DNA from: Xaviernesmea oryzae
GTDB taxonomy: Bacteria; Pseudomonadota; Alphaproteobacteria; Rhizobiales; Rhizobiaceae
Reading direction: 5' to 3'
Assembly (NCBI RefSeq): GCF_900177415.1
Contig: NZ_FXAF01000006.1
Location: forward strand, 129,001 to 193,000
DNA length: 64,000 bases
This document shows positions 6,363-54,143 of the stretch, piece by piece. Each line of letters starts with the position of its first letter. Position 1 is the stretch's first letter. The translations under genes and the position numbers were made by a program. Under the pieces are notes generated by a model. It searched no databases. It was not told where the DNA came from and saw nothing but the letters and a program-made list of their open reading frames with translations.

Positions 6363-6980
6363 CTAGGGTTCTTTGTGCCTTAAATGACTTATTTCGAGAA
6401 TCACGGAATCCGGCTCGACGGCACTCTTGTGCTTTACCAGATCGAACGCCCAGCGGCCACGAGCTTTTTCGATTTCCGCAGAGTAATCCCGGCCTTTATG
6501 AAAAAATGCCTTTGCATTTGTCCCGATTATCCAGCCGGACGCATAAGAAAGCAGCTGATCGAGCTCAGCCAAGGCCCGAGCGGAGATCCGATCACAGTCG
6601 GGGAGAGCTTTGGGAGCTGCCTCGATTCGCAAAGGGTGAACAGAGCCTCGCGCGCCGGTCTCGTTTAGTGCAACCCGGAGAAACGCCGCTTTCTTCTGAT
6701 TGCTCTCCACCAGATGAACCCATCCATCCTGTGCCTCGGCCAGGAAGATCGCCGTGATGACACCTGGAAAGCCTCCGCCGGAACCCAGGTCTAACCACCG
6801 CTGCGGTTCCGGGGAGAGCTGAAAGATCTGCGCGCTATCGGCTATATGGCGTTGCCAGAGCTCGTCGATCGTGGACGGAGCCACGAGATTGATCGTCTTT
6901 GCCCATTTCTGGAAGAGTGCTGCAAAATGCTCCAGTTTCTGCTGCGTTTCACGTGAAACACTCTTGCCGTTCAACAGCAT
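6363..6980 (-). CDS. rsmG: 16S rRNA (guanine-527-N7)-methyltransferase RsmG
   Basis: 205 aa SAM-dependent methyltransferase (GidB). It modifies G527 of 16S rRNA; loss in many bacteria gives low-level streptomycin resistance. The SAM-binding motif [13 protein letters not shown] is at about residues 62-74, followed by [15 protein letters not shown]. The ATG shares one base with the mnmG stop (TAATG), so translation is coupled. Codons for V8-S-R-E-T12 form a near-perfect ParB-binding palindrome at 6945-6960. The protein reads normally through it, showing that the site is accommodated by the coding sequence. Confidence 0.96.
6945..6960. promoter_or_regulatory. parS-type ParB-binding site inside rsmG
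   Basis: CGTTTCACGTGAAACA matches 15 of 16 bases of the widely conserved bacterial chromosomal parS palindrome TGTTTCACGTGAAACA. It lies in codons 8-12 of rsmG, about 6.5 kb from the candidate origin and about 1.4 kb from parB. The assignment is by sequence match and context only. Confidence 0.88.
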
Positions 6981-8866
6981 TACGAGACTCGTTTAAGATG
7001 ATTGCCTGCAGCGTCTTCTTTTCGAAGGAATGCAAGGATAAGCGCAAGAGCCGCCGGCGTCATGCCATCCACCTTGGAGGCTTGTGCAAGATTTGCGGGA
7101 TTGGCAGCCGTCAGCTTCTGCTTCAACTCGTTGGAAAGGCCAGGAAGAGAAGCAAAATCAAAGGCTTGCGGAATTATTCGCGCCTCGTCACGGTAGGTTG
7201 CCTGGATATCCGCCGCCTGCCGATCCATGTAGACCGCATAGGAGGCTTCGATCTCCAGTGCCTCGCCGACCTTCGCCGGAAGCTGCGACAGCTCAGGCCA
7301 GATCGAGGCGAGAGAGCGCAGCGTTTGCTCCGGATAGGCCAACAATTCATAGGCCGTACGGCGCTGACCGTCCTGATTGAGCCTAAGACCATGACGAGAC
7401 GCTTCGTTCGGGGTAACGGCAAGGGAACGAAGCACCTGCCGTCCTTCATCCAACACCCGCCGATAATCTCCGAACCTGTCAGCGCGTTCCCGGCCCACGC
7501 ACCCAAGCGAAATCCCGCTCTCCGTCAGCCTGACATCGGCATTATCCGCCCGCAGCGAAAGGCGATACTCCGCGCGCGACGTAAACATGCGGTAAGGTTC
7601 GGTCACACCGCGGGATGTCAGGTCATCGATCATGACGCCGATATAGGACTCCGTCCGGCTGAAGTGATGAGCTTCGCCGCCAGCGGCGCGGCGGGCCGCA
7701 TTGAGGCCGGCCACCAACCCTTGCGCCGCCGCTTCTTCATATCCGGTCGTGCCATTGATCTGGCCGGCGAGGAACAATCCTGGAATCTTCTTCACTTCGA
7801 GACCCGCCGTCAATTCCCGCGGGTCCACATGATCGTATTCGATGGCGTAGCCGGGCTGAAGTATGGAAACCTTCTCGAGCCCGGGAATGGTCCGGATGAA
7901 GGCTTCCTGAACATCCGCGGGAAGGGATGTCGATATGCCGTTCGGATAGACCGTATCGTCATCAAGCCCCTCAGGCTCCAGAAAAATCTGGTGGCCGTCC
8001 CGCTCGCCGAACCGGACGATCTTGTCTTCGATGGAAGGGCAATACCGCGGGCCTACTCCCTCGATCTGACCGGAATACATGGCAGAGCGATGAATATTGT
8101 CGGAAATGATCTTATGGGCCGCATCCGTCGTCCGGGTCACACCGCAGGCAATCTGGGGCGTCGTGATTCGATCGGTCATGAAGGAGAAAGGCACCGGGTT
8201 CTCATCGGCCTCCTGACGGCCGATACTTTCCCAGTCGATCGTCTTTCCGTCCAGCCGCGCCGGCGTCCCGGTCTTGAGGCGGCCGAGCCGCAGGCCGAAG
8301 CGCATCAGGGTTTCCGAAAGACCGAGAGAAGGGGCTTCGCCAACACGTCCCGCCGGAATCTTCCGATCCCCGATATGGATAAGACCGCGCAGAAAAGTGC
8401 CCGTCGTCAAGACGATCGTTCCGCATGCGAATCGACGCCCGTCCTCAAGTTTCACGGCGGTCACTCGGCCATCCGCGATATCGATATCGTAAGCGTCACC
8501 TTCAATGACGGACAGATTCGGGTGTTCCGCAATCTCCTGCTGCATCGCCAGGCGATAAAGCTTCCGGTCCGCTTGTGTTCTGGGTCCGCGTACGGCGGGA
8601 CCCTTTTTTCTGTTGAGAAGGCGGAACTGAATGCCCGCAGCGTCGGCGATCCGACCCATCAGCCCGTCCAGCGCATCGACCTCGCGCACGAGGTGACCCT
8701 TGCCGAGCCCGCCAATGGCGGGATTGCAGGACATCACCCCGATCGTTTCTCGCTTGTGAGTGATCAGCGCGGTCTTCGCGCCCATGCGGGCGGCAGCGCT
8801 GGCGGCTTCGCAGCCGGCATGCCCCCCACCGATCACAACCACGTCGAATGCCATATCCATTTCCAT
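6980..8866 (-). CDS. mnmG: tRNA uridine-5-carboxymethylaminomethyl modification enzyme MnmG (GidA)
   Basis: About 628 aa FAD-dependent enzyme. With MnmE it installs the cmnm5 group at U34 of certain tRNAs, using methylene-THF and glycine. The FAD dinucleotide-binding motif GGGHAG is at residues 13-18, and the family signatures [15 protein letters not shown] and [13 protein letters not shown] are intact. The N terminus is ambiguous: a GTG at 8869 and ATGs at 8866, 8860 and 8854 are all in frame, and an AAGGTG ribosome-binding sequence best serves the ATG at 8860. It lies in the mnmE-mnmG-rsmG-parA-parB cluster and overlaps rsmG by one base. Confidence 0.97.
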
Positions 8867-8884
8867 CACCTTACGAGACAGCGA

Positions 8885-8900
8885 TGTTTCACGTGAATCA
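8885..8900. promoter_or_regulatory. parS-type ParB-binding site at the mnmE stop
   Basis: TGTTTCACGTGAATCA matches 15 of 16 bases of the parS palindrome. Its right edge includes the mnmE stop codon (TGA on the minus strand at 8898-8900), and the rest lies in the 31-bp mnmE-mnmG gap. It is about 4.5 kb from the candidate origin. Confidence 0.87.
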
Positions 8901-10202
8901 TTTGCCGATGCAAAACTGCGAAAAAATCACATCCAAAAGCTGCTCGACATCCACGCGGCCGGTAATACGACCCAAGGCTGAAGCAGCGGCACGAAGATTC
9001 TCGGCCCTGAGGTCCAGTTCGGTGCCGTTTAGCGCTTCCGAGAGGGAATTGGAAGCCTCCTTCAGATACTGAGTCTGCCGGAGACGGTTGGGAACCAGCG
9101 ATCCGGACCAGGTATTCTGCAATTCGGTGAGAATGCGGGCACGCAGCTGCTCCAGTCCTTCTCCCGTTTGGCTGGAAATGCAAAGGTCATAGCTCGCGGA
9201 TGGACCGTGCGTATCGAGCTTCGTTCCTATGCGCAACGCGTTCGGAGAGACGATATCGATCGTATGTTTCGATTCCGAATCGATCTCTTCAAGCTGCAGG
9301 ATCATATCCGCCTGCTCGATGGCTATCCTGGCGCGGCGAATCCCTTCCTGTTCCACCCGATCCACGCTTTCCCGAAGGCCGGCCGTATCGAAGAAGCGGA
9401 CAAGATAGCCGTCCATATCGATGTCGACATGCAATATATCGCGTGTGGTGCCGGCGATTTCCGTCACGATCGCCACGTCCCGCTTGGCCAAGGCATTGAG
9501 AAGACTGGATTTTCCGGAATTCGGAGGACCCGCGATGACGACCTTGTAACCGTCCCGGATGATCTCCGCGGCTTTTCCCGCCGCTATATGCTCTTCGATG
9601 TCCAGAAGGAGATCGGCCATATCGGTCCAGACCCGGTCCGACACCGCGCCGGGAACATCCTCCTCATCCGCAAAGTCGAGTTCCGCCTCGATAAGTGCTC
9701 TGGCCCGTGTAAGGCGCTCCGCCCATTCCATGTAGAGAGCGGACTGTCCGCCGAAGCTCTGCTCGATCGCAAGGCGTCTCTGCATCTCGGTCTCGGCTGC
9801 GATGAGATCCGCAAGCCCTTCGGCCTCGACGAGATCCAGCTTCCCGTTCTCGAAAGCGCGTCTCGAAAATTCTCCGGCTTCCGCCAGGCGCAACCCGGAA
9901 ATGGCGGCAAGCTCCGCATAGACCGCCGAAACCACGGCCCGGCTTCCATGCAGATGGAGCTCCACGCAATCTTCGCCCGTGAAGGAATTCGGCCCGGGAA
10001 AGCTGACAACCAGTCCCTCGTCGATGACGAGACCGTTCCGGCCTCGGATTGTGCGCAAGCCGGCTTTCCTCGCGGGCGGCAGATTGCCTGCTAGAGCCTT
10101 CGCCGCCTCGAAAGCTTGTGGGCCGCTCAGACGCACGACAGCCACGCCCGCCGGCAATGTGCCGCTGGAAAGCGCAAAAATCGTGTCGTCTAAGCGGGTC
10201 AT
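8898..10202 (-). CDS. mnmE: tRNA modification GTPase MnmE
   Basis: 434 aa. It partners MnmG in U34 tRNA modification; GTP hydrolysis drives the complex. It has an N-terminal tetrahydrofolate-binding domain (residues 1-120), a helical domain, and an inserted G domain with the P-loop GPPNSGKS at 225-232, the G3 motif DTAGLRE, and a TKLD segment as the G4 equivalent. The C-terminal CIGK, with the cysteine essential in this family, ends the protein at 431-434. It is 86 bp downstream of rho and separated from it by a terminator-like hairpin, so it probably begins its own transcript with mnmG, rsmG, parA and parB. Confidence 0.97.
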
Positions 10203-10234
10203 CGGAAAACTCTATCAAATCAGACCATAAACTC

Positions 10235-10259
10235 AAAAGCGCCCGGACCAGCCGAGCGC
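10235..10259 (-). terminator. Terminator after rho
   Basis: Read on the minus strand, GCGCTCGG and CCGGGCGC form an 8-bp stem (one G-T pair) around a 5-base loop, followed directly by TTTT. It lies 30 bp past the rho stop and ahead of mnmE. Confidence 0.6.
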
Positions 10260-10288
10260 CTGAGATAGGAAATGAATCCGGCTAAGTA

Positions 10289-11554
10289 TCAGGTATTCAT
10301 CGAGTCGAAGAAATCGCCGTTGTTCTTCGTCTGCTTCAGCTTGTCGATCAGGAATTCGATCGCGTCCGTCGTTCCCATTGGAGCGAGGATACGGCGCAGC
10401 ACGAAGATCTTCTGGAGATCCTGCCTCGGGACGAGCAGGTCTTCCTTGCGCGTGCCGGACTTCAGGATGTCCATGGCCGGGAAGATGCGCTTGTCCGCGA
10501 CCTTGCGGTCCAGCACGATTTCCGAGTTGCCGGTGCCCTTGAATTCTTCGAAGATGACTTCGTCCATGCGGCTGCCGGTGTCGATCAGCGCCGTCGCGAT
10601 GATCGTCAGCGAACCGCCTTCCTCGATATTGCGGGCGGCACCGAAGAAGCGCTTCGGCCGCTGCAGGGCATTGGCGTCCACGCCGCCCGTGAGGACCTTG
10701 CCGGAAGAGGGGACGACCGTGTTGTAGGCGCGGCCGAGGCGGGTGATCGAATCGAGCAGGATGACGACGTCGCGGCCGTGTTCGACGAGACGCTTAGCCT
10801 TCTCGATCACCATCTCAGCAACCTGGACGTGGCGCACGGCCGGTTCGTCGAAGGTGGAAGACACCACTTCGCCCCGCACGGAGCGCTGCATGTCCGTCAC
10901 TTCTTCGGGACGCTCGTCGATCAGGAGAACGATCAGATAGCATTCCGGATGGTTGGCGGTGATCGAATGGGCGATGTTCTGCAGGAGGACGGTCTTACCG
11001 GTGCGCGGCGGCGCCACGATCAGCCCGCGCTGGCCTTTGCCGAGCGGCGCCACGAGATCGATGACCCGCGCAGAAAGGTCCTTCGAGGTCGGAACCTCGA
11101 GTTCCATCTTGAACCGTTCGTTCGGATAGAGCGGTGTCAGGTTGTCGAAATGGACCTTGTGCCGGATCTTCTCCGGATCGTCGAAATTGATGGTGTTGAC
11201 CTTGAGGAGCGCGAAATAACGCTCGCCTTCCTTCGGGCCGCGGATTGGGCCCTCGACCGTATCGCCGGTCTTCAGCGAGAAACGGCGGATCTGGGAAGGA
11301 GAGATATAGATATCGTCGGGACCCGGCAGATAGTTGGCGTTCGCCGAACGCAGGAAGCCGAATCCGTCCTGCAAGACCTCGACCACGCCTTCGCCGATGA
11401 TCTCGACGTCCTGGCTCGCCAGAACCTTGAGGATCGCGAACATCAGCTCCTGCTTGCGCATCGTGCTGGCATTCTCGACCTCCAGCGATTCGGCGAAGGT
11501 CAGCAAATCGGTCGGAGATTTGCTCTTGAGTTCTTGAAGCTTCATTTCAGCCAT
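10289..11554 (-). CDS. rho: Transcription termination factor Rho
   Basis: 421 aa hexameric RNA-dependent ATPase/helicase that ends transcription at rut sites. The N-terminal Rho-N and cold-shock-like RNA-binding domains occupy about residues 1-120 ([28 protein letters not shown] region). The ATPase core carries the P-loop APPRTGKT around residue 180, and Walker B lies in [18 protein letters not shown]. Length and motifs match the standard rhizobial protein. Its 186-bp upstream gap holds no gene and is a candidate autoregulated leader. Rho next to mnmE, hemE and the origin is a common alphaproteobacterial arrangement. Confidence 0.98.
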
Positions 11555-11740
11555 GAAGAGGGGACCACGTTAGGAATTTTAGGGAGAATCTAGGCGTGTC
11601 GGTGAAATTCGCTACCGCGGAAGATGATCCGGGGACGACGGGAAATTACACGCATGCCACGAGATGAGATGGCGGTGAAAATAGCGATTCACGTGGTAGG
11701 CCGCAAGGGGCAACACGGAAATCTTGTCAAAGAAAGAAAG

Positions 11741-12286
11741 TCAGAAGGGTTTCACGATCACGAGAATGACGATGCCGATCATCAGAAGCGTGGGAATTTC
11801 GTTCATCATCCGCCAGTAGCGCGGTGACTTGCGCGGTCCGTCTGCGGCAAAGTTCCGCACGGCGCGGCTGAACAGGACATGCACCATGGTCAGCAGCACG
11901 ACCAGCCCGATCTTGGCATGCAGCCAGCCGCCCTGGAACTCGTATACATCCCAGGCAAGGAAAAGACCCAGCGCCCAGGTGATCATCATCGCCGGGTTCA
12001 TGATGATCTTCAAAAGCCGCTGTTCCATCATCTTGAAGGTTTCCGACTGCGCCGAGCCGGGTTCGGCATCGCTGTGATAGATGAAGAGCCGCGGCATGTA
12101 GAGAAGCCCTGCCATCCACGATATCACGGCGATGACGTGGAAAGCCTTGATATAGAGGACGAAATCGTCCGGCCGTGCGACATAGACCGCCACCAGGATG
12201 GCAGCGAATACCGCAAGCGCGACGACGGCCCGGATCGCGGATCGCCTTCCGGCCGCCCTGCCGGACTGCAATTCCGGGGCGCTCAT
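11741..12286 (-). CDS. hemJ: Protoporphyrinogen oxidase HemJ
   Basis: 181 aa inner-membrane protein of the UPF0093/HemJ family, which oxidises protoporphyrinogen IX in many Gram-negative bacteria lacking HemG and HemY. It has four or five hydrophobic segments. The conserved histidine region [19 protein letters not shown] (about residues 44-63) is followed by PRLFIYH. The ATG overlaps the hemE stop in an ATGA arrangement (12283-12286), so hemE and hemJ are translationally coupled steps of heme synthesis. The N-terminal 20 residues are variable and the exact start is less certain than the rest. Confidence 0.9.
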
Positions 12287-13317
12287 GCCTTCGCTCCCCG
12301 CACGCGTTCGACCAATGCCGTGACGTGATCCGGATCGGCCTCCGGCGTGATGCCATGGCCGAGGTTGAAGATCAGCGGCCCGTTGCCGAGCCTGTCGAGA
12401 ATGGCGTCGATGCCTTCCTCAAGAGACTTTCCGCCCGCCACGACCCGCATCGGGTCGAGATTGCCCTGGACCGGACCGTCCTTCTGCAGCTCCGCCGCAA
12501 AGGAAAGCGGCACAGACCAGTCGAGGCCGATCGCGTCGGCCTTGGTCTTCTGACGATAGGATTTCAGGTTGGGGCCGGCCCCCTTGGCAAAGGCGATGAT
12601 CTTCGCCTTCGGCCGGGCGCTTCGTACGAGCTCGATCATGCGCGCGACGGGTTTTGTCGCGTAAGCCTCGAACTCCCGCTCCCCGAGCACGCCTGCCCAG
12701 GAATCGAAGATCTGCACCGCGTCGGCGCCGGCATCGATCTGCGCGATCAGGTATTCCGCGGATATCTCGGCGAGAACCGAAAGCAGCCTCTCGAAGGCTT
12801 CGGGGTTACGATAGGCAAAGAGCCGGGCAGGGGCCTGATCGGGCGTGCCCTGGCCGGCGATCATATAGGTCGCGACCGTCCAGGGCGCGCCGCAGAAGCC
12901 GAGCAGTGTTGTTTCCTCGGGCAATACCCTTCTCAGCCGGCCCACGGTCTCGATCACCGGCGCCAGATGATCGAGAACCCCTTGGCTCCTCAGCCTCTCG
13001 ATACCAGAGACATCGATCGGGTCCATCCGTGGGCCTTCGCCCTGCGCGAAGCGCACATTCCTTTTCAAGGCATCGGGAATGACGAGGATGTCTGAAAACA
13101 GGATCGCCGCATCGAAACCGTAGCGACGGATCGGCTGGAGGGTCACCTCGACCGCCAGATCGGGCGTATAACAGAGATCGAGGAAAGTCCCGGCCCTGGC
13201 ACGGGTTTCCCGATATTCCGGCAGATAGCGTCCCGCCTGTCTCATGAGCCAGATCGGTGGCGGGGCAATGGTCTTGCCTTCCAGCACCTCGACGATCTTG
13301 CGGGTCACGCCGGTCAA
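12283..13317 (-). CDS. hemE: Uroporphyrinogen decarboxylase HemE
   Basis: 344 aa. It decarboxylates the four acetate side chains of uroporphyrinogen III to coproporphyrinogen III in heme synthesis. The family signature [18 protein letters not shown] lies near the N terminus with the substrate-binding arginines, and [12 protein letters not shown] lies mid-protein. I place the start at the TTG at 13317: a strong AGGGAGAA lies just upstream and [15 protein letters not shown] matches the family. A longer reading from a TTG at 13335 would translate through that ribosome-binding site. It borders the candidate replication origin, as hemE does in Caulobacter. Confidence 0.96.
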
Positions 13318-13536
13318 TGGGTTCTCCCTAAACAAAGAAAAGGATTTTAAAAGGGTTTCTATTTCTTAGAGTCGGTGAGTAGCAAGGATTAAAGTCAAAT
13401 CACAGCCGACGCGACGATCCGCCGCCCTCGGACCTGTCCGGGAACAATATTCGCCTCTGGCATCGGGATTTGTGGGATAAGCAGAATTCATCCAAGGCTT
13501 CCAAATAGATAGAACACATGGATTTTCTTCTCTGGC

Positions 13537-13545
13537 TGTGAATAA
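13537..13545 (-). promoter_or_regulatory. DnaA box candidate
   Basis: On the minus strand this reads TTATTCACA, a fit to the DnaA-box consensus TTWTNCACA. It lies in the middle of the hemE-ppsR gap. Confidence 0.6.
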
Positions 13546-13626
13546 GCTGGGGAGAAGGAAAGTGCTTGATGCAATTGTCCCCAGAGCGCACAAGCCTCTC
13601 TGTACCGTGTCCGATGAATTTGCGGA

Positions 13627-13635
13627 TGTGGAAAA
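13627..13635 (-). promoter_or_regulatory. DnaA box candidate
   Basis: On the minus strand this reads TTTTCCACA, a fit to TTWTNCACA. It lies 90 bp from the other candidate box and in the same orientation. Confidence 0.55.
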
Positions 13636-13719
13636 CGAGCCGGTTTTCCCGGAGGCGGAACGGGCCCCTTGATATGCCGATCGTCTCTCCCGAGTTGTCA
13701 ACAAAGGGTTAAGTTTAGC

Positions 13720-14541
13720 GTGGAGAACAGAAAAAACTTCTTCCATCTGCACCTGATATCTGACTCGACGGGCGAGACTCTCATCTCCGCCGGCCGGGCC
13801 GTGTCGGTGCAGTTCCAGTCGTCGCTGGCGATCGAGCATGTCTACCCGCTGATCCGGAACCGGAAGCAGCTCCTGGCGGTGCTCGATGCCGTCGACGAAG
13901 AGCCGGGGATCGTCCTTTATACCATTGTCGATCAGGAGCTCGCGGGGTTCATCGATCAGCGATGCCGCGAGATGGGCCTGCCTTGCGTCAACGTGCTCGA
14001 GCCGGTCATGGCGACATTCCAGGCCTATCTCGGTGCGCCGTCGCGCCGTCGTGTCGGAGCCCAGCATGCGCTGAATGCCGATTACTTCAAGCGCATCGAA
14101 GCGCTCAACTTCACCATGGATCATGATGACGGGCAGCTGCCCGAAGATTACGACGAGGCGGATGTCGTGCTGATCGGCATCAGCCGCACGTCGAAAACGC
14201 CGACCAGTATCTATCTCGCGAATCGCGGAATCAAGACGGCCAATATCCCGATCGTTCCGGGCGTCGATCTGCCGGAAAGCCTCTATCGGGCCACGCACCC
14301 GTTGATCGTCGGCCTGGTCGCGACGACGGACCGCATCAGCCAGGTGCGCGAACATCGCGAGCTGGGGGCGACGCAGGGCTTTGATCGTCGTCATTACACG
14401 GACCGCGCGACGATCAACGAGGAACTGAAATATGCCCGCGCGCTTTGTGCCCGGCACAATTGGCCGATCATCGATGTGACGCGGCGCTCGATCGAAGAGA
14501 CGGCGGCCGCGATCGTTGCGCTGCGCCCGAAGCTGCGTTAA
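13720..14541 (+). CDS. ppsR: Pyruvate phosphate dikinase regulatory protein (DUF299 kinase/pyrophosphorylase)
   Basis: 273 aa of the DUF299 family, bifunctional proteins that phosphorylate and dephosphorylate pyruvate phosphate dikinase or PEP synthetase. The nucleotide-binding GISRTSKT motif is at residues 153-160, and the N-terminal [13 protein letters not shown] is the family opening. I choose the GTG at 13720 because the protein then begins (M)[15 protein letters not shown]; upstream in-frame codons read into the origin region. It is the first gene rightward from the candidate origin, 33 bp before maf. The same gene flanks the Caulobacter origin. Which dikinase it controls cannot be read here. 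Confidence 0.93.
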
Positions 14542-14574
14542 GCGGGACTGCCATCGCCTCAGGGAGAATTTTTC

Positions 14575-15168
14575 GTGGCACTGCCCCTTGTCCTTGCCTC
14601 CTCCAGCCCATTCCGCCGGATGCTGATGGAAAATGCCGGCCTCACGTTTGAGAGCCGTGCTGCGGATATCGACGAGCGGAAGATCGAGGCTGGCCTCGAA
14701 GGCGCCTCTCCCGATGAGGTGGCCTTGTCGCTTGCCAAAGCCAAGGCTCTGGACGTTGGCAGCCATTTTCCGGGGGCATTGGTGATCGGCTCGGACCAGA
14801 CCATGTCGCTCGGCAGCCGCGTCTATCACAAGACGAAGTCTCTTGCGGAAGCGAAGGAAAGCCTGCTGTCGCTCTCCGGTAAGACCCACCGGCTGAACAG
14901 CGCGATCGCACTCGCCCGGAACAATGAGATCGTCTGGGAGCATGTCGCCCATGCGGATCTGACGGTTCGGACGCTGAGCGAAAGCTTCGTGGATCGCTAT
15001 CTGTCGCGGGTCGGCGAAAAGGCATTCGGCAGCGTCGGCGCCTATCAGCTGGAAGGCGAGGGCATCCAGCTCTTCTCGAGGATAGAGGGCGATTACTTCA
15101 CCATCCTCGGCCTGCCCATGCTGCCGCTCCTGGAGAAGCTGCGCGAACTCGGAGCCGTCGATGGCTGA
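14575..15168 (+). CDS. maf: Maf-like nucleoside triphosphate pyrophosphatase
   Basis: 197 aa Maf/Ham1-superfamily protein, probably a dTTP/UTP-type pyrophosphatase that removes modified or excess nucleotides. The N-terminal ASSSPFRR (residues 8-15) is the characteristic substrate loop, and [20 protein letters not shown] contains the conserved acidic and lysine residues. The start is a GTG at 14575 preceded by AGGGAGAA. The last 8 bp overlap aroE, and a parS-type palindrome straddles the overlap. It belongs to the ppsR-maf-aroE-coaE-dnaQ run. Exact substrate preference is inferred from the family. Confidence 0.93.
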
Positions 15169-16021
15169 TTCACGTGAAACATTCTTGGTTAACGCCTTCG
15201 TCACGGGCTGGCCGGTGAAGCATTCGCGATCGCCGCTGATTCACGGATATTGGCTGAAGCAGTTCGGCATCGCCGGCACCTATAGGGCCGAACCGGTCTC
15301 CAAAGAGGATTTTCCGGTCTTCATCCGGTCCTTGAAGAATGGCACATCCGGATATCGCGGCGGCAATGTCACGATCCCGCACAAGGAACTGGCCTTCAAG
15401 CTGTCCGACCGCCCGGATGCGCTGGTCGAGGAACTCGGAGCGTCGAACACGCTCTGGATGGAAGACGGCCTGCTCCACGCCACGAATACCGACGGCTACG
15501 GTTTCACGGCTAATCTGGACGAGCGCCATCCCGGCTGGGACCGGGCCCGGCATGCCGTGGTCTTCGGCGCCGGCGGCGCAAGCCGTGCGGTCATCCAGGC
15601 CATCCGCGATCGCGGCATCGGTGAGATCCATGTGGTCAACCGCACCGTTTCCCGCGCGCAGGAACTTGCCGATCGCTTCGGTCCGAAGGTGCATGCCCAC
15701 CCGATGGAAGCGCTGGGCGAGGTGATGTCGGGTGCCGGCCTGTTCGTGAACACGACCTCGCTCGGCATGGACGGCGGCGAGGCGCCCCGGATCGACTTCT
15801 CGCCGCTTCTGGATGGCGCCGTTGTCACCGATATCGTCTATGTGCCGCTGAAAACGCCCCTGCTGGCCCAAGCCGAAGAGCAGGGGTTTGCCACTTTCGA
15901 CGGGCTCGGCATGCTCCTGCACCAGGCCGTGCCGGGTTTCGAAAAATGGTTCGGCCGCCGACCGGTGGTCGACAAGGCGCTTCGCGATCTCGTCATCGCC
16001 GACATGGAAGGACATGGATGA
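15161..16021 (+). CDS. aroE: Shikimate dehydrogenase AroE
   Basis: 286 aa NADPH-dependent enzyme reducing 3-dehydroshikimate to shikimate in the aromatic pathway. The substrate-binding SRS motif is at residues 22-24, and the catalytic lysine is K75 in NVTIPHKE. The Rossmann loop GAGGASRAV and the C-terminal [10 protein letters not shown] are intact. The start overlaps maf by 8 bp. Codons S4-R-E-T7 are encoded by a parS-type palindrome. It is coupled to coaE by an ATGA overlap at 16018-16021. Confidence 0.96.
15166..15181. promoter_or_regulatory. parS-type ParB-binding site in the maf/aroE overlap
   Basis: TGATTCACGTGAAACA matches 15 of 16 bases of the parS palindrome. It covers the maf stop and aroE codons 2-7, about 1.5 kb from the candidate origin on the side opposite parAB, and is the closest site to it. 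Confidence 0.87.
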
Positions 16022-16626
16022 TCGTCATCGGCCTCACCGGCTCCATCGGCATGGGGAAATCCACGACCGCGAAAATGTTCGCGGACGAAGGCGTGCCGGT
16101 GAACGATTCCGATGCGGTGGTCCATGATCTCTACCGCACCGATGCGGTAGGGCCTGTCGGTGAAGCCTTCCCCGGCACCGTGAAGTATGGTGTCATCGAC
16201 CGGCAGGAATTGTCCCGCCAGCTCGCTGCCCAGCCGGAAAAATTTCCCGTTCTTGAAGCGATCGTGCATCCGCTTGTGCGCCGCCGTGAACTCGATTTCC
16301 TGACGCATCACCGGGAGGCCGGCGCCGATCTCGTGCTTCTCGATATCCCGCTGCTCTTCGAGGTGAAGGGCGAAGGCCGAGTCGATGTAATCGTCGTCGT
16401 GACCTGCGATCCACAGATCCAGCGTGAAAGAGTGCTTGCGCGACCGGGCATGACGGGGGAAAAATTGGCAATGATTCTCTCCCGCCAGATGCCCGATGCG
16501 GAAAAGCGGAAAAGAGCCGACTTCCTGATCGATACGGGGCTCGGGCTGGACGCGGCGAGGGAGAGGGTGCGGGAAGTCATCGCCTCCCTGAGAGCCGGAA
16601 AGACGAGCGAAAAGCCAGATGCGTGA
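16018..16626 (+). CDS. coaE: Dephospho-CoA kinase CoaE
   Basis: 202 aa P-loop kinase carrying out the last step of CoA synthesis (dephospho-CoA to CoA). The P-loop GSIGMGKS is at residues 8-15, and LLDIPLLFE plus the lid-region arginine in [10 protein letters not shown] are present. The start ATG overlaps the aroE stop (ATGA), and the end overlaps dnaQ by 8 bp. The aroE-coaE-dnaQ order is standard for rhizobia. The window also holds coaA at 55.3 kb, the first committed CoA step. Confidence 0.95.
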
Positions 16627-17335: not shown

Positions 17336-17337
17336 AA

Positions 17338-17361
17338 AAGCCCGGGGTCGTGCCCGGGCTT
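17338..17361. terminator. Bidirectional terminator between dnaQ and secB
   Basis: AAGCCCGGG and CCCGGGCTT form a perfect 9-bp stem around a 6-base loop. An A-run precedes it on the plus strand (17332-17339), supplying the T-tract for the minus strand, so it fits secB at least as well as dnaQ. Confidence 0.75.
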
Positions 17362-17387
17362 CCTGTCATGATCGGCTTTTGACCGGC

Positions 17388-24072: not shown

Positions 24073-24088
24073 TGTTTCACGTGAATCT
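24073..24088. promoter_or_regulatory. parS-type ParB-binding site (pair, copy 1)
   Basis: TGTTTCACGTGAATCT matches 14 of 16 bases of parS. It lies between the gyrB terminator and the nitroreductase, 10.4 kb from the candidate origin. A second copy begins 29 bp further on. Confidence 0.85.
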
Positions 24089-24101
24089 TTCCTGTGGATA
24101 T

Positions 24102-24117
24102 GGATTCACGTGAAACA
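24102..24117. promoter_or_regulatory. parS-type ParB-binding site (pair, copy 2)
   Basis: GGATTCACGTGAAACA matches 14 of 16 bases of parS. Its centre is 29 bp from that of copy 1; this is the only pair in the window. Confidence 0.85.
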
Positions 24118-27898: not shown

Positions 27899-27914
27899 GG
27901 ATTCACGTGAAACG
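27899..27914. promoter_or_regulatory. parS-type ParB-binding site after the DUF2852 gene
   Basis: GGATTCACGTGAAACG has the full TTCACGTGAA core and matches 13 of 16 bases of parS. It sits between the stop codon and the terminator, 14.2 kb from the candidate origin. Confidence 0.78.
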
Positions 27915-41689: not shown

Positions 41690-41694
41690 GGGCC

Positions 41695-42429: not shown

Positions 42430-42451
42430 GGCTTCCGTTTTAGAGCCCCGC

Positions 42452-46539: not shown

Positions 46540-46678
46540 GCCCGGTCTGTCTCCGTCCAATTGCCGCTCATCGACAAGACATACCATTCCGCGCCTTGCC
46601 CGGAACCGACGCTCCGGCAGGCGCGAATCAACCTCAAAACAATACCTGCTGAGGGAATCGCCGGGAAGGGAGGCGCCC

Positions 46679-46714
46679 AAAAAAGAAGCCGCAGCCTTTT
46701 GTCAAGGCTGCGGC
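46679..46714 (-). terminator. Terminator after ahcY
   Basis: On the minus strand GCCGCAGCC and GGCTGCGGC form a perfect 9-bp stem with a 9-base loop, followed by TTCTTTTTT. It lies 31 bp past the ahcY stop and upstream of divL. Confidence 0.92.
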
Positions 46715-46745
46715 CACTATATCTTGTGGATTAACCGGCTAGCGA

Positions 46746-48146
46746 TTAGTACCGGTAGTGTTCCGCCTTGAACGGACCCTGCTGCGAGACGCCGATATAG
46801 GCAGCCTGTTCGTCGGACAGCTCCGTCAGCTTTACGCCGAGCTTGGCGAGATGCAGGCGCGCGACCTTTTCGTCGAGGTGCTTCGGCAGGATATAGACCT
46901 CGTTCTTGTACTGGCCCTGCTTGGTGAAGAGCTCGATCTGCGCCAGCGTCTGGTTGGTGAACGAGGCGGACATCACGAAGGACGGATGGCCGGTGGCGTT
47001 GCCGAGGTTGAGCAGACGGCCTTCGGACAGAAGGATGATGCGGTTGCCCTTCGGGAACTCGATCATGTCGACCTGCGGCTTGACGTTGGTCCACTTGAGG
47101 TTCCGGAGAGCCGCGACCTGGATCTCGTTGTCGAAGTGGCCGATATTGCCGACGATCGCCATGTCCTTCATCGCGCGCATGTGCTCGATGCGGATGACGT
47201 CCTTGTTGCCGGTCGTGGTGATGAAGATGTCGGCGGTCGAAACGACGTCCTCGAGAACGACGACTTCGAAACCGTCCATGGCGGCCTGCAGCGCGCAGAT
47301 CGGGTCGACTTCGGTGACCTTGACGCGGGCGCCGGCGCCGGCAAGCGAAGCAGCCGATCCCTTGCCCACGTCGCCGTAACCGCAGACGACCGCGACCTTG
47401 CCGGCCATCATCACGTCGGTGCCGCGGCGGATGCCGTCGACCAGCGATTCCTTGCAGCCGTACTTGTTGTCGAATTTCGACTTGGTGACCGAGTCGTTGA
47501 CGTTGATGGCCGGGAAGGGCAGCAGGCCCTTCTTGGAGAGTTCATAGAGGCGGTGGACGCCGGTCGTGGTTTCTTCGGTGACACCCTTGATCGCGTCGCG
47601 CTGCTTGGTGAACCAGCCCGGCGAAGCCTGGAGGCGCTTCTTGATCTGCGCGAAGAGGATTTCCTCTTCTTCCGAACCGGGATTGGACAGCACGTTCTCG
47701 CCGGCTTCGGCGCGGGCGCCGAGCAGGATGTACATCGTGGCGTCACCGCCGTCGTCGAGGATCATGTTGGAGAAGCCGCCATCGGCCCACTGGAAGATCT
47801 TGTCGGTATATTCCCAGTATTCGGTGAGCGACTCGCCCTTGACGGCGAAGACGGGGATGCCGGCAGCGGCGATCGCGGCGGCGGCATGGTCCTGCGTCGA
47901 GAAGATGTTGCACGAAGCCCAGCGGATTTCGGCGCCGAGCTCCCTGAGCGTCTCGATCAGCACGGCCGTCTGGATGGTCATGTGGAGCGAGCCCGAGATG
48001 CGGGCGCCCTTCAGCGGCTTCGATTCCCCGAATTCGCTGCGGCAGGACATCAGGCCCGGCATTTCGGTTTCGGCGATGTCGAGTTCCTTGCGGCCGTAGG
48101 CGGCAAGATTGATGTCCGCGACGACGTAATCCTTCTCAGTGCTCAT
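46746..48146 (-). CDS. ahcY: Adenosylhomocysteinase (SAH hydrolase)
   Basis: 466 aa NAD-dependent enzyme splitting S-adenosylhomocysteine to adenosine and homocysteine, clearing the inhibitor left by methyltransferases. The N terminus [15 protein letters not shown], the [16 protein letters not shown] segment and the NAD loop [11 protein letters not shown] are typical, as is the [10 protein letters not shown] block. The ATG at 48146 is chosen; upstream in-frame codons lack similarity. It has its own terminator and a 168-bp leader containing a perfect palindrome (48267-48288) that is a plausible operator. Confidence 0.97.
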
Positions 48147-48266
48147 AAAGCTCTCCAAGCGTTCGGTGGCGCCTTCTCCGCGGAAGACCGGCGGACGTGG
48201 CAAGGCCCGCCCTGACAGGCGGAAGCTGGCCAGCGGTTTAGCAGGCTTCCTGCAAGCTGGCAACGG

Positions 48267-48294
48267 GATATAAAGAAGTCTTTATATCTTTATG
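48267..48294. promoter_or_regulatory. Palindromic operator candidate upstream of ahcY
   Basis: GATATAAAGA (48267-48276) and TCTTTATATC (48279-48288) form a perfect 10+10 palindrome with a 2-base centre, followed by a further TTTATG half (48289-48294). It lies 121-142 bp upstream of the ahcY ATG and just after ptsH. ArsR-family SahR regulators control SAH-cycle genes in proteobacteria through AT-rich palindromes; assigning this site to SahR is inference. Confidence 0.6.
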
Positions 48295-48314
48295 TCCGTG
48301 GAAGGTTAAGGTGC

Positions 48315-48593
48315 TCAGGCCTCTTCGCCGAATTTGTTGGCGACGAGCTGTTCGAGCGCGTCCAGCGCTTCGGTGGCCTGGCTGCCGCTCGCGGAGACTT
48401 CGATCGTGCAGCCGGTGCTGGCCGCAAGCATCATGAGGCCCATGATCGAGTTGCCACCGACGGTCGTGCCGTCGCGGGAAACGGTGATCTGTGCGTCGAA
48501 ACCTTCGACCATCTGCACGAATTTGGCGGAGGCACGGGCGTGGAGACCGCGTTTGTTGACGATCAGGAATTCACGGGTGAGGGGGGATGACAT
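48315..48593 (-). CDS. ptsH: HPr-like phosphocarrier protein
   Basis: 92 aa. The phospho-accepting histidine is H18 in RGLHARASAKF, and the regulatory serine is S49 in GGNSIMGL, the target of HPr kinase. It receives phosphate from a PTS enzyme I and passes it to EIIA. It lies 13 bp after the EIIA-Man gene and in the same direction as hprK and chvGI. No sugar permease (EIIB/C) is nearby, so a regulatory PTS is likely. Confidence 0.95.
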   Translation of the reverse strand: MSSPLTREFLIVNKRGLHARASAKFVQMVEGFDAQITVSRDGTTVGGNSIMGLMMLAASTGCTIEVSASGSQATEALDALEQLVANKFGEEA

Positions 48594-48606
48594 CCGGTTC
48601 GGGTTC

Positions 48607-49008
48607 TCATTTGCCGCTTAATACGCGGCTTGCGACATTGATGTATTTCCGACCCGCTTCGGAAGCCTCGACAAGCGCCTTGTCCATATTGTTGTCGCTG
48701 CGCACGCCGGCCAGCTTGATCAGCATCGGCAGGTTCATGCCGGCGATGACCTCGGTCTTGCCGCTGTCCATGACGGAAATGGAAAGGTTGGAGGGAGTGC
48801 CGCCGAACATGTCGGTGAGGATGATGACGCCGCTGCCGTCGTCTGCCCGGGCAACGGCATCGACGATGTCCTGCCGCCGCTGATCCATGTCGTCTTCGGG
48901 GCCGATCGATACGGTCTCGATGAATTTCTGGGGCCCGACGACATGCTCCACGGCATGACGAAATTCCTCAGCCAGCTTGCCATGGGTGACAAGCACAAGT
49001 CCGATCAT
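48607..49008 (-). CDS. PTS EIIA-Man family protein
   Basis: 133 aa. The N terminus MIGLVLVTHGKLAEEF places the phospho-histidine at H9, and GVIILTDMFGGTPSN is the second family signature. In alphaproteobacteria this single-domain EIIA acts without a transporter, as a phosphorylated regulatory output of the PTS. It lies between hprK (125-bp gap) and ptsH. The interacting target is not visible here. Confidence 0.93.
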   Translation of the reverse strand: MIGLVLVTHGKLAEEFRHAVEHVVGPQKFIETVSIGPEDDMDQRRQDIVDAVARADDGSGVIILTDMFGGTPSNLSISVMDSGKTEVIAGMNLPMLIKLAGVRSDNNMDKALVEASEAGRKYINVASRVLSGK

Positions 49009-49133
49009 GAAAACTGCCCCCTGCTATGGAAACTCGCGGCCATTATCGCATTGCAACAAAGCCGTCCAGCGGTGGGAAGCCATCTTCTCCAAGTAGAATT
49101 GAAGTGCAAGTCAAAAAACAGGCTCCCGGATGA

Positions 49134-49598
49134 TCAAAAGGGCATCTCGCCGTGAAAACCGGGTGCCAAAGCGGCGAGAATGGCCAGGGGATCAGGTGCT
49201 CCTTGCCATATCCGCAGAAGGGGAAGCCCGCCGAGGCCGGAGACGGAAAACCGCTCGTCTTGGGGCGGGAGGCGATCGCTTTCGGGCAGCGAGACGACTT
49301 CGACCGCGAGGTCCAGCACCGCCGCCGGCACGCTTTCGACGGTCGCAATGCCGCTGCCGCGCAACTCGATCAGACCGGCGATGGATTCCGGCCGGCTGGC
49401 GAGGAGCCGGCCGCCGTGGCCGGAGATCAGGACCTGGTCGTCGGCGACAAGGGCGGCAAACGCTCCCTGCCGTTTCGCCGACGCGATGCAGGAGAAGGCA
49501 AGCATGGACTTGCCGCTGCCGGAAGGCCCGGTGAACAGGATGCCCCTGGTGCCGATGACGACCGCCGTGCCGTGGACATTGACGGCGTCCGGGCTCAT
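49134..49598 (-). CDS. hprK: Short HPr kinase/phosphorylase
   Basis: 154 aa, about half the length of Gram-positive HprK because the N-terminal domain is missing. The kinase core is intact: catalytic-site H9 in VNVHGTAVVI, Walker A GPSGSGKS at 24-31, VADDQVLI, and IELRGSGI, the HprK signature. It phosphorylates a serine on HPr, here probably S49 of the adjacent ptsH product. The start overlaps the chvG stop (ATGA), linking PTS output physically to the ChvGI system. The short form is normal for alphaproteobacteria. Confidence 0.93.
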   Translation of the reverse strand: MSPDAVNVHGTAVVIGTRGILFTGPSGSGKSMLAFSCIASAKRQGAFAALVADDQVLISGHGGRLLASRPESIAGLIELRGSGIATVESVPAAVLDLAVEVVSLPESDRLPPQDERFSVSGLGGLPLLRIWQGAPDPLAILAALAPGFHGEMPF

Positions 49599-51385
49599 GG
49601 GGTTTCGCCGCCGGGCAGCGACAGCGTGAAGCGGGCTCCGGCCAAGGCGCCGGTCTTCGGATCATGCAGGTTCTCGGCTCGGAGCGAACCGCCGTGTGCT
49701 TCGGCGATCTGCCGGCTGATCGACAGGCCGAGGCCGGAATTCTGCCCGAAACTCTCCCCTTCCGGCCGATCCGTATAGAAGCGCTCGAAGATGCGGTCGA
49801 TATCTTCCGCCTGAATGCCGGGGCCGTTGTCGTCCACCGTGATCGTGACGCGGTCCTTCACCCGCGAAAGCCGGATCGAGATGCGGCCGCCTTTTTCGGG
49901 CACGAAGGACCGGGCATTCTCGATGAGATTGGTGATGATCTGGCCGAGGCGCAGGTCGTGGCCGTTGACGAGATAGGCCGATTTGCTGCCGCCCTTGCCG
50001 TCGATCGCGAGCTCGATTTCCACCGGCTTGCGCCCGGTGCGGATCTGCCGGGAAATGTCGACGAGATTGCCGAGCAGGCTTTCCATGTCCACCGGCGAGG
50101 AGTCGGAGCGGGCGAGCTCCGCATCGAGCCGCGAGGCGTCGGAAATGTCGCTGATGAGGCGGTCGAGACGGCGCACATCATGGAAGATGATCTCCGTCAG
50201 CCGCCGTTTCGACTCGTCCGACCTGGCGAGCGGCAGGGTTTCGACCGCGCTGCGGAGCGATGTGAGCGGATTCTTGAGCTCGTGGCTCACATCGGCGGCG
50301 AAACTTTCGATCGCGTCGATCCGGTCGTAGAGCGCCGTGGTCATTTCGCGGAGCGCGATGGAGAGGTTGCCGATCTCGTCCTGGCGATAGGAGAAGTCCG
50401 GGATCTCCTCGCGCTGCTTGGCGCCGCGCCTGACCCGGATCGCCGCCGCTGCGAGACGCCGCAGCGGATTGGCGATCGTCGAGGACAAAAGCAGCGAAAG
50501 CAGGATGTTGACGAGCGTCGCCACGCCGAAGACGCGCATGATGGCGAGCCGCTCCGCATGCACGATCTTGTCGATATCGCCGGCCTGGGTCGACAGGAGA
50601 AGCACGCCGAGCACGGCGCGGAAACGCTGGATCGGCACGGCGACCGAGACGATCAGCTCGCCGCGCTCGGTCACGCGCACCAGGGCGCCGCGAACGCCGG
50701 TGAGCGCGTTCATGACTTCCGGATAGATGGAGCCGTCGCCGCCCGGCGCTTCCTTGTAGACCGGCAGGTTGCCGGGCTGCAGCAGGCGGTTGAAAAGCCC
50801 CGCGAACCAGTCGCTCCAGGTCTGGGATTCGTTTTCCACCGGGGGCAGATCGAAGCGCAGCACCTGGCCGCGCGAATAGAGATGGCGGGAATCCAGCAGC
50901 AGGTTGGCGTCGGCATCGAAGATGCGAGCGCGGGTGCGGGTGGGCGAGATGAGGCGACGCAGGACCGGCGCCACGCGCTCCGGATCGATCGGGAAATCGA
51001 GGTCCTCGTCGTTCGGCACCGGCGTGATGCTTTGGCCGGCCTGAAGTTCCAGAAGCTTCTGCGGATCGATGGTGATCGAATTGGTATCGACGGAGGCGGA
51101 GGCGGAGATCGCGCCTGCGATGATTTCACCCTGCGTCAGGAGGCTTTCGACGCGCGCGTCGATCAGTCCCTCGCGGAACTGGTTGAGGTAGAGAATGCCG
51201 GCGACGAGCACCACCGTCGCGGCGATGTTGAAGAACAGGATGCGGCGGGTGAGGCTCGAAAAGACCGCGTGGCCGAAGACCCTGCGGATGAGCGTGAAAG
51301 GCCGCGACCAGAACCGCCGCGGCGCGCGGCGGATCTCGGCCTTCTCGATTCCGGCCATTTCGCTGTCGAACGTCTGATCTGCCAC
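49595..51385 (-). CDS. chvG: Sensor histidine kinase ChvG (ExoS)
   Basis: 596 aa inner-membrane kinase of the ChvG-ChvI pair that controls envelope, exopolysaccharide and acid/host responses in rhizobia and agrobacteria. Membrane segments lie near residues 45-68 and 270-295 around a periplasmic sensor domain, then HAMP and HisKA with the phospho-histidine H368 in DVSHELKNPLTSL. The HATPase has NLIENARSF, DNGPGI and GLGLSISRQIAEAHGG. GTG start at 51385 with GGAAGGA upstream. It lies 73 bp after chvI and overlaps hprK. Confidence 0.95.
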   Translation of the reverse strand: MADQTFDSEMAGIEKAEIRRAPRRFWSRPFTLIRRVFGHAVFSSLTRRILFFNIAATVVLVAGILYLNQFREGLIDARVESLLTQGEIIAGAISASASVDTNSITIDPQKLLELQAGQSITPVPNDEDLDFPIDPERVAPVLRRLISPTRTRARIFDADANLLLDSRHLYSRGQVLRFDLPPVENESQTWSDWFAGLFNRLLQPGNLPVYKEAPGGDGSIYPEVMNALTGVRGALVRVTERGELIVSVAVPIQRFRAVLGVLLLSTQAGDIDKIVHAERLAIMRVFGVATLVNILLSLLLSSTIANPLRRLAAAAIRVRRGAKQREEIPDFSYRQDEIGNLSIALREMTTALYDRIDAIESFAADVSHELKNPLTSLRSAVETLPLARSDESKRRLTEIIFHDVRRLDRLISDISDASRLDAELARSDSSPVDMESLLGNLVDISRQIRTGRKPVEIELAIDGKGGSKSAYLVNGHDLRLGQIITNLIENARSFVPEKGGRISIRLSRVKDRVTITVDDNGPGIQAEDIDRIFERFYTDRPEGESFGQNSGLGLSISRQIAEAHGGSLRAENLHDPKTGALAGARFTLSLPGGETP

Positions 51386-51458
51386 TGCGGTCCTTCCACC
51401 GGATCAGTTTATCCCCGATCCGGCCGTGGCCTCAAGTTAAGCTTTCGCAAGGAGCCGG

Positions 51459-52178
51459 TCAGGCAGCCTCGCGGAAGCGATAGCCAACGCCGTAGAGCGT
51501 TTCGATCATGTCGAAGTCGCCGTCAACCATTTTGAACTTCTTGCGCAGCCGCTTGATGTGGCTGTCGATCGTACGGTCGTCCACATAGACCTGCTCGTCG
51601 TAAGCCGCATCCATCAACGCGTCGCGGCTTTTGACCACGCCCGGCCGCTGCGCCAGCGAATGCAGGATCAGGAACTCGGTCACCGTCAGCGTCACGGGCT
51701 CACCCTTCCAGGTGCAGGTATGACGCTCCTGATCCATGAGGAGCTGGCCGCGCTCCAATGTGCGGGCCGCCTGTTGGTCCGGCACCGTCTTCGCGCCGCC
51801 GACTTGCGCATCGCGGCTGCCCGCGCGGCGCAGGATCGCCTTCACCCGTTCCACCAGCAGTCGCTGGGAGAAAGGCTTGGTGATGAAATCATCCGCACCC
51901 ATCTTCAGCCCGAACAGCTCGTCGATTTCCTCATCCTTGGAGGTGAGGAAGATCACCGGCAGGTCGGATTTCTGCCGCAGCCGGCGCAGCAGCTCCATTC
52001 CGTCCATACGCGGCATCTTGATATCGAAGATCGCCAGTTGCGGGGGACGGGCAACCAGCCCGTCGAGGGCGGAGGCGCCGTCCGTATAGGTTTCGACCTT
52101 GTATCCTTCCGCTTCCAGTGCGATCGACACCGACGTCAGGATGTTGCGGTCGTCATCTACGAGCGCGATTGTCTGCAT
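51459..52178 (-). CDS. chvI: Response regulator ChvI
   Basis: 239 aa OmpR-family regulator. The receiver domain starts [14 protein letters not shown], with the phospho-aspartate D52 in [13 protein letters not shown] and the conserved lysine in [10 protein letters not shown] winged-helix DNA-binding domain lies at the C terminus ([16 protein letters not shown]). The ATG at 52178 is the usual rhizobial start and follows GGAGA; an upstream ATG at 52199 is possible. It is phosphorylated by ChvG and divergent from pckA. Confidence 0.96.
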
Positions 52179-52506
52179 ACTCTCCGTCTCCGTCACCATT
52201 TATGCGCATCTCCTGGAATCACCCCAGCCCAGGCGCCATAAGCCGACGCGCTTCTTGAGTATAAAGGTGGAACAAATTGTGGCAAAGTTAAAGGGGCGGC
52301 CTACGGTCGCATCATTTAGGCCTTCATATTGCACCATCCCGGATGAGGATCAAAAAAGTTCCTAAACCGATTTAAAGAGGAATAAAGTTTTTTAAATCGA
52401 TTAATTAATTGATATTATTAAACAATTCCACGCCTCCCTCTTGCCCTTTCAGAATTCTGTCATTAATTTCGCAGCACGTTCAACGGTTAGCGGAAGGAAT
52501 GCGCGC
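52179..52506. promoter_or_regulatory. chvI-pckA divergent promoter region
   Basis: 328 bp without a gene, carrying both promoters. The pckA side (52350-52430) is strikingly AT-rich compared with the rest of the window. It contains two similar palindromes: TAAACCGATTTA (52363-52374) and TTAAATCGATTAA (52392-52404), centres 30 bp apart. The chvI side shows TTGAGTATAAAGG-type sequence (near 52255) but no firm promoter. Confidence 0.7.
52363..52404. promoter_or_regulatory. Paired LacI-like operator candidates upstream of pckA
   Basis: Two AT-rich palindromes centred on CG, TAAACCGATTTA and TTAAATCGATTAA, lie 30 bp apart centre to centre, about three helical turns. They are 103-144 bp upstream of the pckA ATG. 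In S. meliloti a LacI/GalR-family protein, PckR, controls pckA; that these are its sites is my inference. Confidence 0.55.
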
Positions 52507-54117
52507 ATGGAGGAGTTTGGACTTCACAACCCGTCCAATGGGTTAGCGGCGATCGGTCTCGGCGGGGTGTCGCGCGTCAATTACAACCTTTCCGAGGTCG
52601 AGCTTTACGAGGAAGCCATTCGCCGCGGTGAAGCCGATGTCACTGCCGACGGCGCGCTGCGGGCGATCACCGGCCAGCATACGGGCCGTTCTCCGAAGGA
52701 CAAATTCGTCGTCCGGGACGCCGATACCGAAAACCGGATCTGGTGGGACAACAACAAGCCCATGTCGCCGGAACATTTCGAAGTGCTGCGGAAGGACATG
52801 CTGGCGCATGCGGCCGGCAAGACGCTCTATGTGCAGGACCTGATCGGCGGCGCCGACGAGGAAAACGCCCTGCCGACCCGGGTCGTCACGGAGCTTGCCT
52901 GGCACGCGCTCTTCATCCGCAACCTTCTGATCCGCCCGAACCGCGACACGCTGACGGACTTCCGGCAGAAGCTGACGATCATCAACCTGCCGAGCTTCAA
53001 GGCCGATCCCGCCCGCCACGGCTGCCGCACCGAGACGGTGATCGCCTGCGACCTGACGAACGGTCTGGTCCTGATCGGCGGCACGTCCTATGCGGGCGAG
53101 AACAAGAAGTCCGTCTTCACCGTTCTCAACTATCTCCTGCCGGCCAAGGGCGTCATGCCGATGCATTGCTCGGCCAACCTCGGCAAGGACGGAGATTCGG
53201 CCGTCTTCTTCGGCCTTTCGGGCACCGGCAAGACGACGCTTTCGGCCGACCCGAACCGCACGCTGATCGGCGACGACGAGCACGGCTGGGGCGAAAACGG
53301 CATCTTCAACTTCGAGGGTGGCTGCTACGCCAAGGCGATCAAGCTTTCGGCCGAGGCCGAGCCGGAAATCTATGCCGCAACCCGCCGTTTCGGCACCGTG
53401 CTCGAAAACGTCGTGCTCGATGAAAACCGCGTGCCGGATTTCAACGACGGCTCGCTGACGGAAAACACCCGCAGCGCCTATCCGCTGCACTTCATTCCGA
53501 ACGCGTCTGATACCGGCCTTGCGCCGCATCCGAAGACGATCATCATGCTGACCGCAGATGCCTTCGGCGTCATGCCGCCGATCGCCAAGCTGACGCCGGA
53601 ACAGGCCATGTACCACTTCCTTTCCGGTTATACCGCCAAGGTCGCCGGCACGGAAAAGGGCGTGACCGAACCGGAAGCCACGTTCTCGACCTGCTTCGGC
53701 GCCCCGTTCATGCCGCGCCATCCGGCCGAATACGGGAACCTGCTCAAGGAGCTGATCGCCCGTCACGGCGTCGATTGCTGGCTGGTCAACACCGGCTGGA
53801 CCGGCGGCGCCTACGGCATCGGCCGCCGCATGCCGATCAAGGCGACCCGCGCTCTTTTGGCGGCCGCGCTGAACGGCAGCCTCAACAACGCGGAATTCCG
53901 CATCGATCCGAATTTCGGCTTCGCAGTGCCGGTCGCCGTCGAGGGCGTCGACAATTCCATCCTCGACCCGCGCTCGACCTGGGCGGACGGTGCCGCCTAC
54001 GACGCCCAGGCCCGGAAGCTGGTGTCGATGTTCATCGCGAATTTCGAGAAGTTCGAAAATCACGTCGACAGCAAGGTCCGCGACGCCGCCCCGGGCCTGC
54101 TCGTCGCCGCCGAATAG
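52507..54117 (+). CDS. pckA: Phosphoenolpyruvate carboxykinase (ATP)
   Basis: 536 aa. It converts oxaloacetate and ATP to PEP, the first committed step of gluconeogenesis, needed for growth on dicarboxylates. The ATP loop GLSGTGKTT is at residues 236-244, followed by [11 protein letters not shown]-type [12 protein letters not shown] and the [14 protein letters not shown] signature are intact. The ATG at 52507 has GGAAGGAA upstream; an in-frame ATG at 52441 adds an unsupported extension. It ends at a terminator that overlaps a parS-type palindrome. Confidence 0.97.
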
Positions 54118-54127
54118 TTCGCATTAA

Positions 54128-54143
54128 GGATTCACGTGAAACC
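54128..54143. promoter_or_regulatory. parS-type ParB-binding site after pckA
   Basis: GGATTCACGTGAAACC carries the full TTCACGTGAA core and matches 13 of 16 bases of parS. Its right end overlaps the first bases of the pckA terminator stem. It is 40 kb from the candidate origin, the most distant site in the window. Confidence 0.72.

Follow-up and report, generated by a model that had tools for sequence, protein, structure and literature searches.

We examined seven parS-like palindromes in a 64,000-nucleotide stretch of the Xaviernesmea oryzae genome (contig NZ_FXAF01000006.1, positions 129,001 to 193,000; hereafter the window), which also encodes the partition proteins ParA and ParB. These sites are most probably the parS sequences, the predicted ParB loading sites, of the primary-chromosome ParABS system in a bacterium of the Rhizobiaceae close to Neorhizobium, and they fall into two tiers. 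The cluster consists of ordinary, well conserved docking sites for chromosome segregation; the modest surprise is that six of the seven sites share the same one-letter change in one half.

The parS consensus, which we take to be the palindrome TGTTTCACGTGAAACA of about 16 bp, is matched by the seven sites at 13 to 15 positions, and the individual matches of 15, 15, 15, 14, 14, 13 and 13 agree with those counted in the original prediction. Copies of the decamer TTCACGTGAA begin at 6948, 8888, 15169, 24076, 24105, 27902 and 54131, which places the 16-mers at their predicted starts, with parAB in the same window as had been claimed (Table 1). The decamer appeared on average 0.02 times in 100 shuffles, none of which reached seven copies, bearing out the claim that the clustering is far above chance. 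When the motif was counted genome-wide, an even distribution was not seen: among 10 copies in 6,065,255 bases, seven lie in the window, two elsewhere on the same contig (C5:23023 and C5:50054) and one on another contig (C10:89914), and the backward pattern, used as the control, occurs once. The extended 14-mer GWTTCACGTGAAWC has seven copies in the genome, all in the window, and its control pattern has none. Each of the two additional core sites on the contig matches the consensus at 14 of 16 positions. With six relatives tried, the orthologous core was intact in the single relative that aligned at C5:23023 and in one of three at C5:50054.

Table 1. Partition genes, candidate origin and parS sites in the window (window positions).
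Feature	Position	Strand	Description
parB	4645..5526	-	Pfam ParB_N, HTH_ParB, ParB_C; Caulobacter ParB 6t1f E 6e-70
parA	5555..6346	-	Pfam AAA_31 + CbiA
rsmG (gidB)	6363..6980	-	Pfam GidB; contains parS 1
parS 1	6945..6960	.	only full 14-bp palindrome; within rsmG 5' end, codons V-S-R-E-T
parS 2	8885..8900	-	one-half variant GATTCACGTGAAAC (minus strand); mnmG/mnmE junction, overlaps end of mnmE open reading frame (8898)
candidate oriC	13336..13740	.	contig 142.3-142.7 kb; hemE/ppsR gap; two one-mismatch DnaA boxes
parS 3	15166..15181	+	one-half variant; maf end / aroE start, codons D-S-R-E-T
parS 4	24073..24088	-	one-half variant; left of inverted twin after gyrB
parS 5	24102..24117	+	one-half variant; right of twin; 15-nt spacer TTTCCTGTGGATATG
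parS 6	27899..27914	+	one-half variant; 11 bp past DUF2852 gene
parS 7	54128..54143	+	one-half variant; 11 bp past phosphoenolpyruvate carboxykinase gene

The alignment of the window ParB with Caulobacter ParB (6t1f) covers residues 7-251, and as read from it the window ParB keeps all eight of the parS-contacting residues given in an excerpt of PMC7383237 (Q162, G170, K171, S172, R173, N178, G201 and R204). The ParB of Neorhizobium galegae, among the closest named relatives, is 92 percent identical to it. We infer ParB binding in the window species, and likewise the strengths of the two tiers of sites.

Scored over the 14-bp core, the seven sites give 14, 13, 13, 13, 13, 13 and 13, the six lower scores each reflecting a T-to-A change in one half. 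The perfect site at 6945 is the closest of all to parAB and the third closest to the candidate replication origin (oriC). In relatives, we found the 14-mer in all 19 genomes compared as well as in the window genome, with 4-7 copies each in the genus. We also examined 80 named loci that were chosen by their ParB and in which sites were mapped by offset, a fairer test than loci chosen for parS. Here the rsmG position was palindromic in 80 of 80 loci, at the same offset from parB; the mnmG/mnmE region held variant and palindrome together in 38 loci, the variant alone in 32, the palindrome alone in 2 and neither in 8; and 69 loci had a one-half site at the place of maf/aroE, some 10 kb away from parB. 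Tier counts were then compiled over the window's first 30 kb and 37 fetched loci with marker genes, with two C sites set aside and with three of the 40 fetched loci (L106, L116 and L117) left out as they had no marker genes. The ratio of palindromes to one-half sites was 36 to 3 at rsmG, 19 to 31 in mnmG/mnmE contexts and 3 to 42 in all other contexts (core contexts versus rest, Fisher p about 2e-10). The layout reads as two-tiered and tied to parAB, with palindromes beside parAB and half-changed sites farther out.

Two of these sites overlap coding sequence. The rsmG 14-mer was in frame in 36 of the 37 loci with an rsmG match (34 full palindromes and two with the last half changed, read as V-S-R-E-S), and the codons flanking it differ among loci. 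Of 33 loci with an aroE match, 14, spanning 8 genera, carry the site encoding D-S-R-E-T at the start of that gene. Conservation of both sites looks like selection on DNA rather than protein, with the absence of synonymous change arising partly by construction, as the 14-mer itself was searched and the loci were chosen for parS.

Next, we investigated how the two halves vary. The 795 sites counted across 190 genomes of the family comprised 368 palindromes, 425 sites carrying A in a single half and 2 carrying it in both, versus about 58 of the last kind expected from independent halves; in the 80 named loci, none of 260 sites had A in both. Single-half changes at the variant base were A in 425 cases, C in 23 and G in 7. 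In total, 23 family sites were changed in both halves (A/A 2, A/C 14, A/G 2, C/C 2, G/G 2, G/C 1), most of them on contigs or at distances not placed relative to the origin, and by our own estimate from base composition several of the 23 are chance occurrences. One of the two A/A sites (G190:C10:61109) is separated by about 3.5 kb from a cluster member of the one-half type. Tolerance by ParB of one imperfect half would best account for the depletion of A/A sites, and the habit may exist because ParB binds a site better when one arm is intact than when both are changed, as described for Pseudomonas aeruginosa (PMC4368675, excerpt). Among 240 genomes of the class, the palindrome occurred in 195, the one-half variant in 8 (including the window genome) and A in both halves in 2; with the variant in only these 8, the habit belongs to the window's family and some relatives in the order. 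Outside the family, the habit is strong in G016, a genome from another family of the order (partly covered by L085), where ten of eleven parS 14-mers are one-half sites. Unusually many full palindromes were counted in G547 (79), G528 (18) and G107 (19).

A lysine at the position equivalent to residue 184 of Caulobacter ParB is described as permissive (PMC7383237, excerpt), and we considered it as a cause of the half-variant tolerance. ParB was readable in 35 of 40 loci, and K184 was present in 31 of the 33 that had both a one-half variant and a readable ParB. It was also present in 2 of 19 loci without the variant, the twentieth locus (L154) having both the lysine and the variant. In a further 20 loci (15 with readable ParB), none of the 4 variant-bearing loci had K184 and 3 of the 11 lacking the variant did, and we therefore dropped it as a cause: it is a clade marker, not a requirement.

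The variant half carries GATTC, a GANTC target of the methylase CcrM, in six of the seven window sites. The outlying sites could thus be composite ParB/CcrM sites in which GATTC is kept as a methylation target and the change from full to hemimethylated DNA at replication alters their ParB loading. Besides the six GATTC halves in the window, the excess of A over C and G among single-half changes in the family fits this idea, as does a CcrM-type RAMA domain found in 20 of 20 relatives searched (among 14 control genomes, Caulobacter alone has it). As a class-wide rule, however, we rejected it: the variant occurs in 8 of 240 class genomes, although CcrM is described as conserved in most Alphaproteobacteria (PMC3973325, excerpt). 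Moreover, G013, G017 and G019 have the RAMA domain yet palindromes only; GCTTC occurs without any GATTC site in G039, G046, G121, G141, G180 and G193; and GANTC methylation at the Caulobacter parS locus was unchanged under constitutive methylase expression (PMC5172544, excerpt). We regard composite sites as improbable. Equally doubtful is the fuller scheme, in which outlying Rhizobiaceae parS would be methylable in one half only, fork passage would transiently alter ParB loading, and the methylation-blind rsmG palindrome would keep the centromere working. Excerpts of the literature on ParB, parS and CcrM (PMC11514494, PMC5172544, PMC9040568 and PMC3973325) contained no statement on GANTC inside chromosomal parS halves, and GATTCACGTGAAAC had no match in the literature searched. 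The one-half asymmetry with its GATTC variant half and the A/A depletion are possibly new; we do not claim that asymmetry or GANTC is unpublished.

We also weighed whether only the rsmG and mnmG sites work, the outlying one-half sites being decaying relics. The site at 54 kb was present in few congeners among the matches listed (a counterpart of parS 7 at the matching distance was found in G002 and G005), and the two farther core sites on the contig are poorly conserved, both of which count for decay. Against decay, the aroE-start 14-mer is kept in the 14 loci and 8 genera described above, one-half sites outnumber palindromes in the 190 family genomes (425 to 368), and G398, a genome of the class, lacks palindromes and has just one one-half site, near parB. 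We think it unlikely that the outlying sites are relics, and favor retained auxiliary parS sites.

Positions relative to the origin depend on where the origin is placed. On one strand the window carries parB, parA, rsmG, mnmG, mnmE, rho and hemE, and on the far side ppsR, maf, aroE, coaE, an exonuclease gene (dnaQ) and gyrB, an order found again in those fetched loci that have marker genes (the labels dnaQ, hemJ and ppsR were assigned in this analysis). By the gene order of Caulobacter and Sinorhizobium, together with its two one-mismatch DnaA boxes, the hemE/ppsR gap is a candidate oriC. The cumulative guanine-cytosine (GC) skew over C5:1-413000 had its minimum at contig position 160,890 (about 31.9 kb in the window), within a curve that is nearly flat at contig positions of about 130-170 kb (about 1-41 kb in the window). 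That the palindromes lie around the origin, as proposed, holds at a resolution of 20-30 kb and not more finely, the skew minimum and the gap being about 18 kb apart. All seven genomic 14-mers are concentrated in an origin region that is located roughly.

The original prediction further held that site quality falls with distance from the origin, as in a graded centromere. The 16-mer scores do so: their rank correlation with distance to the candidate oriC was -0.94 over the seven sites (p about 0.005, one-sided permutation test) and -0.72 for nine sites when the two contig core sites were added (p about 0.016). However, each score below 15 among the seven sites is due to the outermost positions 1 and 16, which are only loosely kept in relatives (T at position 1 in 27/58 palindromic and 53/83 one-half sites; A at position 16 in 33/58 and 59/83). 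The 14-bp core instead gives one perfect site and six equal ones, a one-half variant (15166) lies closer to the candidate oriC than any other site, and the palindromes of relatives concentrate at rsmG and mnmG. The claim survives for the 16-mer scores and fails for the core, which makes it only partly right as stated, and we consider a gradient set by distance from the origin quite unlikely, preferring two tiers tied to parAB.

We also tried a rule that the A half faces the candidate oriC, which it does in five of the six asymmetric window sites. The rule was dropped, as orientation looks conserved per gene context: over the window and the 37 loci, the opposite orientation was found at 4/4 sites for hemE, 3/3 for hemJ, 3/4 for rho|hemJ and 2/3 for mnmE|rho.

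That the sites are ordinary transcription-factor operators or terminator hairpins is highly improbable. Five of the seven are found within intergenic gaps or on their margins, and the gyrB twin, flanked by convergent genes, repeats 14 bp perfectly in inverted orientation. However, two sites are embedded in the beginnings of coding sequences that are unrelated to each other, no 14-mer occurs outside the origin region, and each of the 80 named relatives has a palindrome at the rsmG position.

The twin after gyrB (parS 4 and 5, 24073-24117) could also form a hairpin, and its spacer contains the DnaA-like sequence TGTGGAT. Among 12 congeners with positions listed, 11 have the twin (G007 does not), and TGTGGAT is in the spacer of 8 of these 11. 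Upstream of rho, at about 11684-11700, GATTCACGTGGTAG resembles a remnant of a one-half parS, and four fetched loci (L085, L097, L105 and L109) carry a one-half site in the rho-hemJ interval. About 2.2 kb to the left of the window (C5:126811), GGTTTCCCGTGAAACA matches 14 of 16 parS positions with a changed core and may be an extra weak site.

Several observations weigh against a two-tiered cluster in which one half is kept intact. The sites compared share descent, so the p values overstate their independence, and in the tier counts neither the rsmG nor the mnm positions are palindromic throughout. An absolute rule that one half must be intact is not upheld in view of the 14 A/C sites of the family, a number that, by our own estimate, is about that expected from chance together with independent halves. 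Finally, the origin itself is placed to 20-30 kb only.

ParB loading and hierarchies of strong and weak parS sites are already established in Pseudomonas and Caulobacter. P. aeruginosa likewise has several sites (parS1-parS10), of which the perfect or near-perfect ones lie nearest oriC and are best bound there and the outliers are imperfect, so a strong-near, weak-far arrangement is known (PMC4368675, excerpt). Its core is TGTTCCAC, whereas here it is TGTTTCAC, and its outliers are spread chromosome-wide with differing changes, whereas the six sites here share one change within 47 kb. In Caulobacter crescentus, parS1-7 similarly form an alphaproteobacterial cluster of strong and weak sites, about 8 kb from ori, with one half (GTGAAA there) better conserved than the other; unlike in the window, its five strongest sites lie within 5 kb (PMC5815017, excerpt). 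Within the same family, ParB1 of Agrobacterium tumefaciens is enriched at parS1 in chromatin immunoprecipitation sequencing, and the parS1 consensus is stated to be that of Bacillus subtilis parS (PMC9239152, excerpt). The parS sites of repABC replicons are also alphaproteobacterial centromere sites, some near GANTC clusters, but they are bound by RepB on secondary replicons and not by chromosomal ParB (PMC9040568, excerpt).

In the mechanism we propose, ParB dimers would bind parS through a helix-turn-helix on each half site, close as clamps bound to cytidine triphosphate, slide onto flanking DNA and build the partition complex. ParA would carry this complex toward the pole right after replication of the origin region, and the complex is probably also where SMC is loaded. 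The full palindromes beside parAB (those at rsmG and, for many relatives, at mnmG/mnmE as well) would load ParB most strongly and be the hardest to dispense with. The sites farther out, with one GTTTCAC and one GATTCAC half (T-to-A), would be weaker auxiliary loaders that widen the ParB domain over about 47 kb.

With the whole set of parS 14-mers confined to one window, a smooth gradient is replaced by two tiers tied to parAB. The variant half creates a CcrM target, so that a link of DNA methylation to chromosome partition can be tested directly; if true, such a link would tie centromere size to the cell cycle. For rhizobial centromeres these data suggest a simple rule, in which one half of a parS site is nearly always intact and the other usually carries one particular change.

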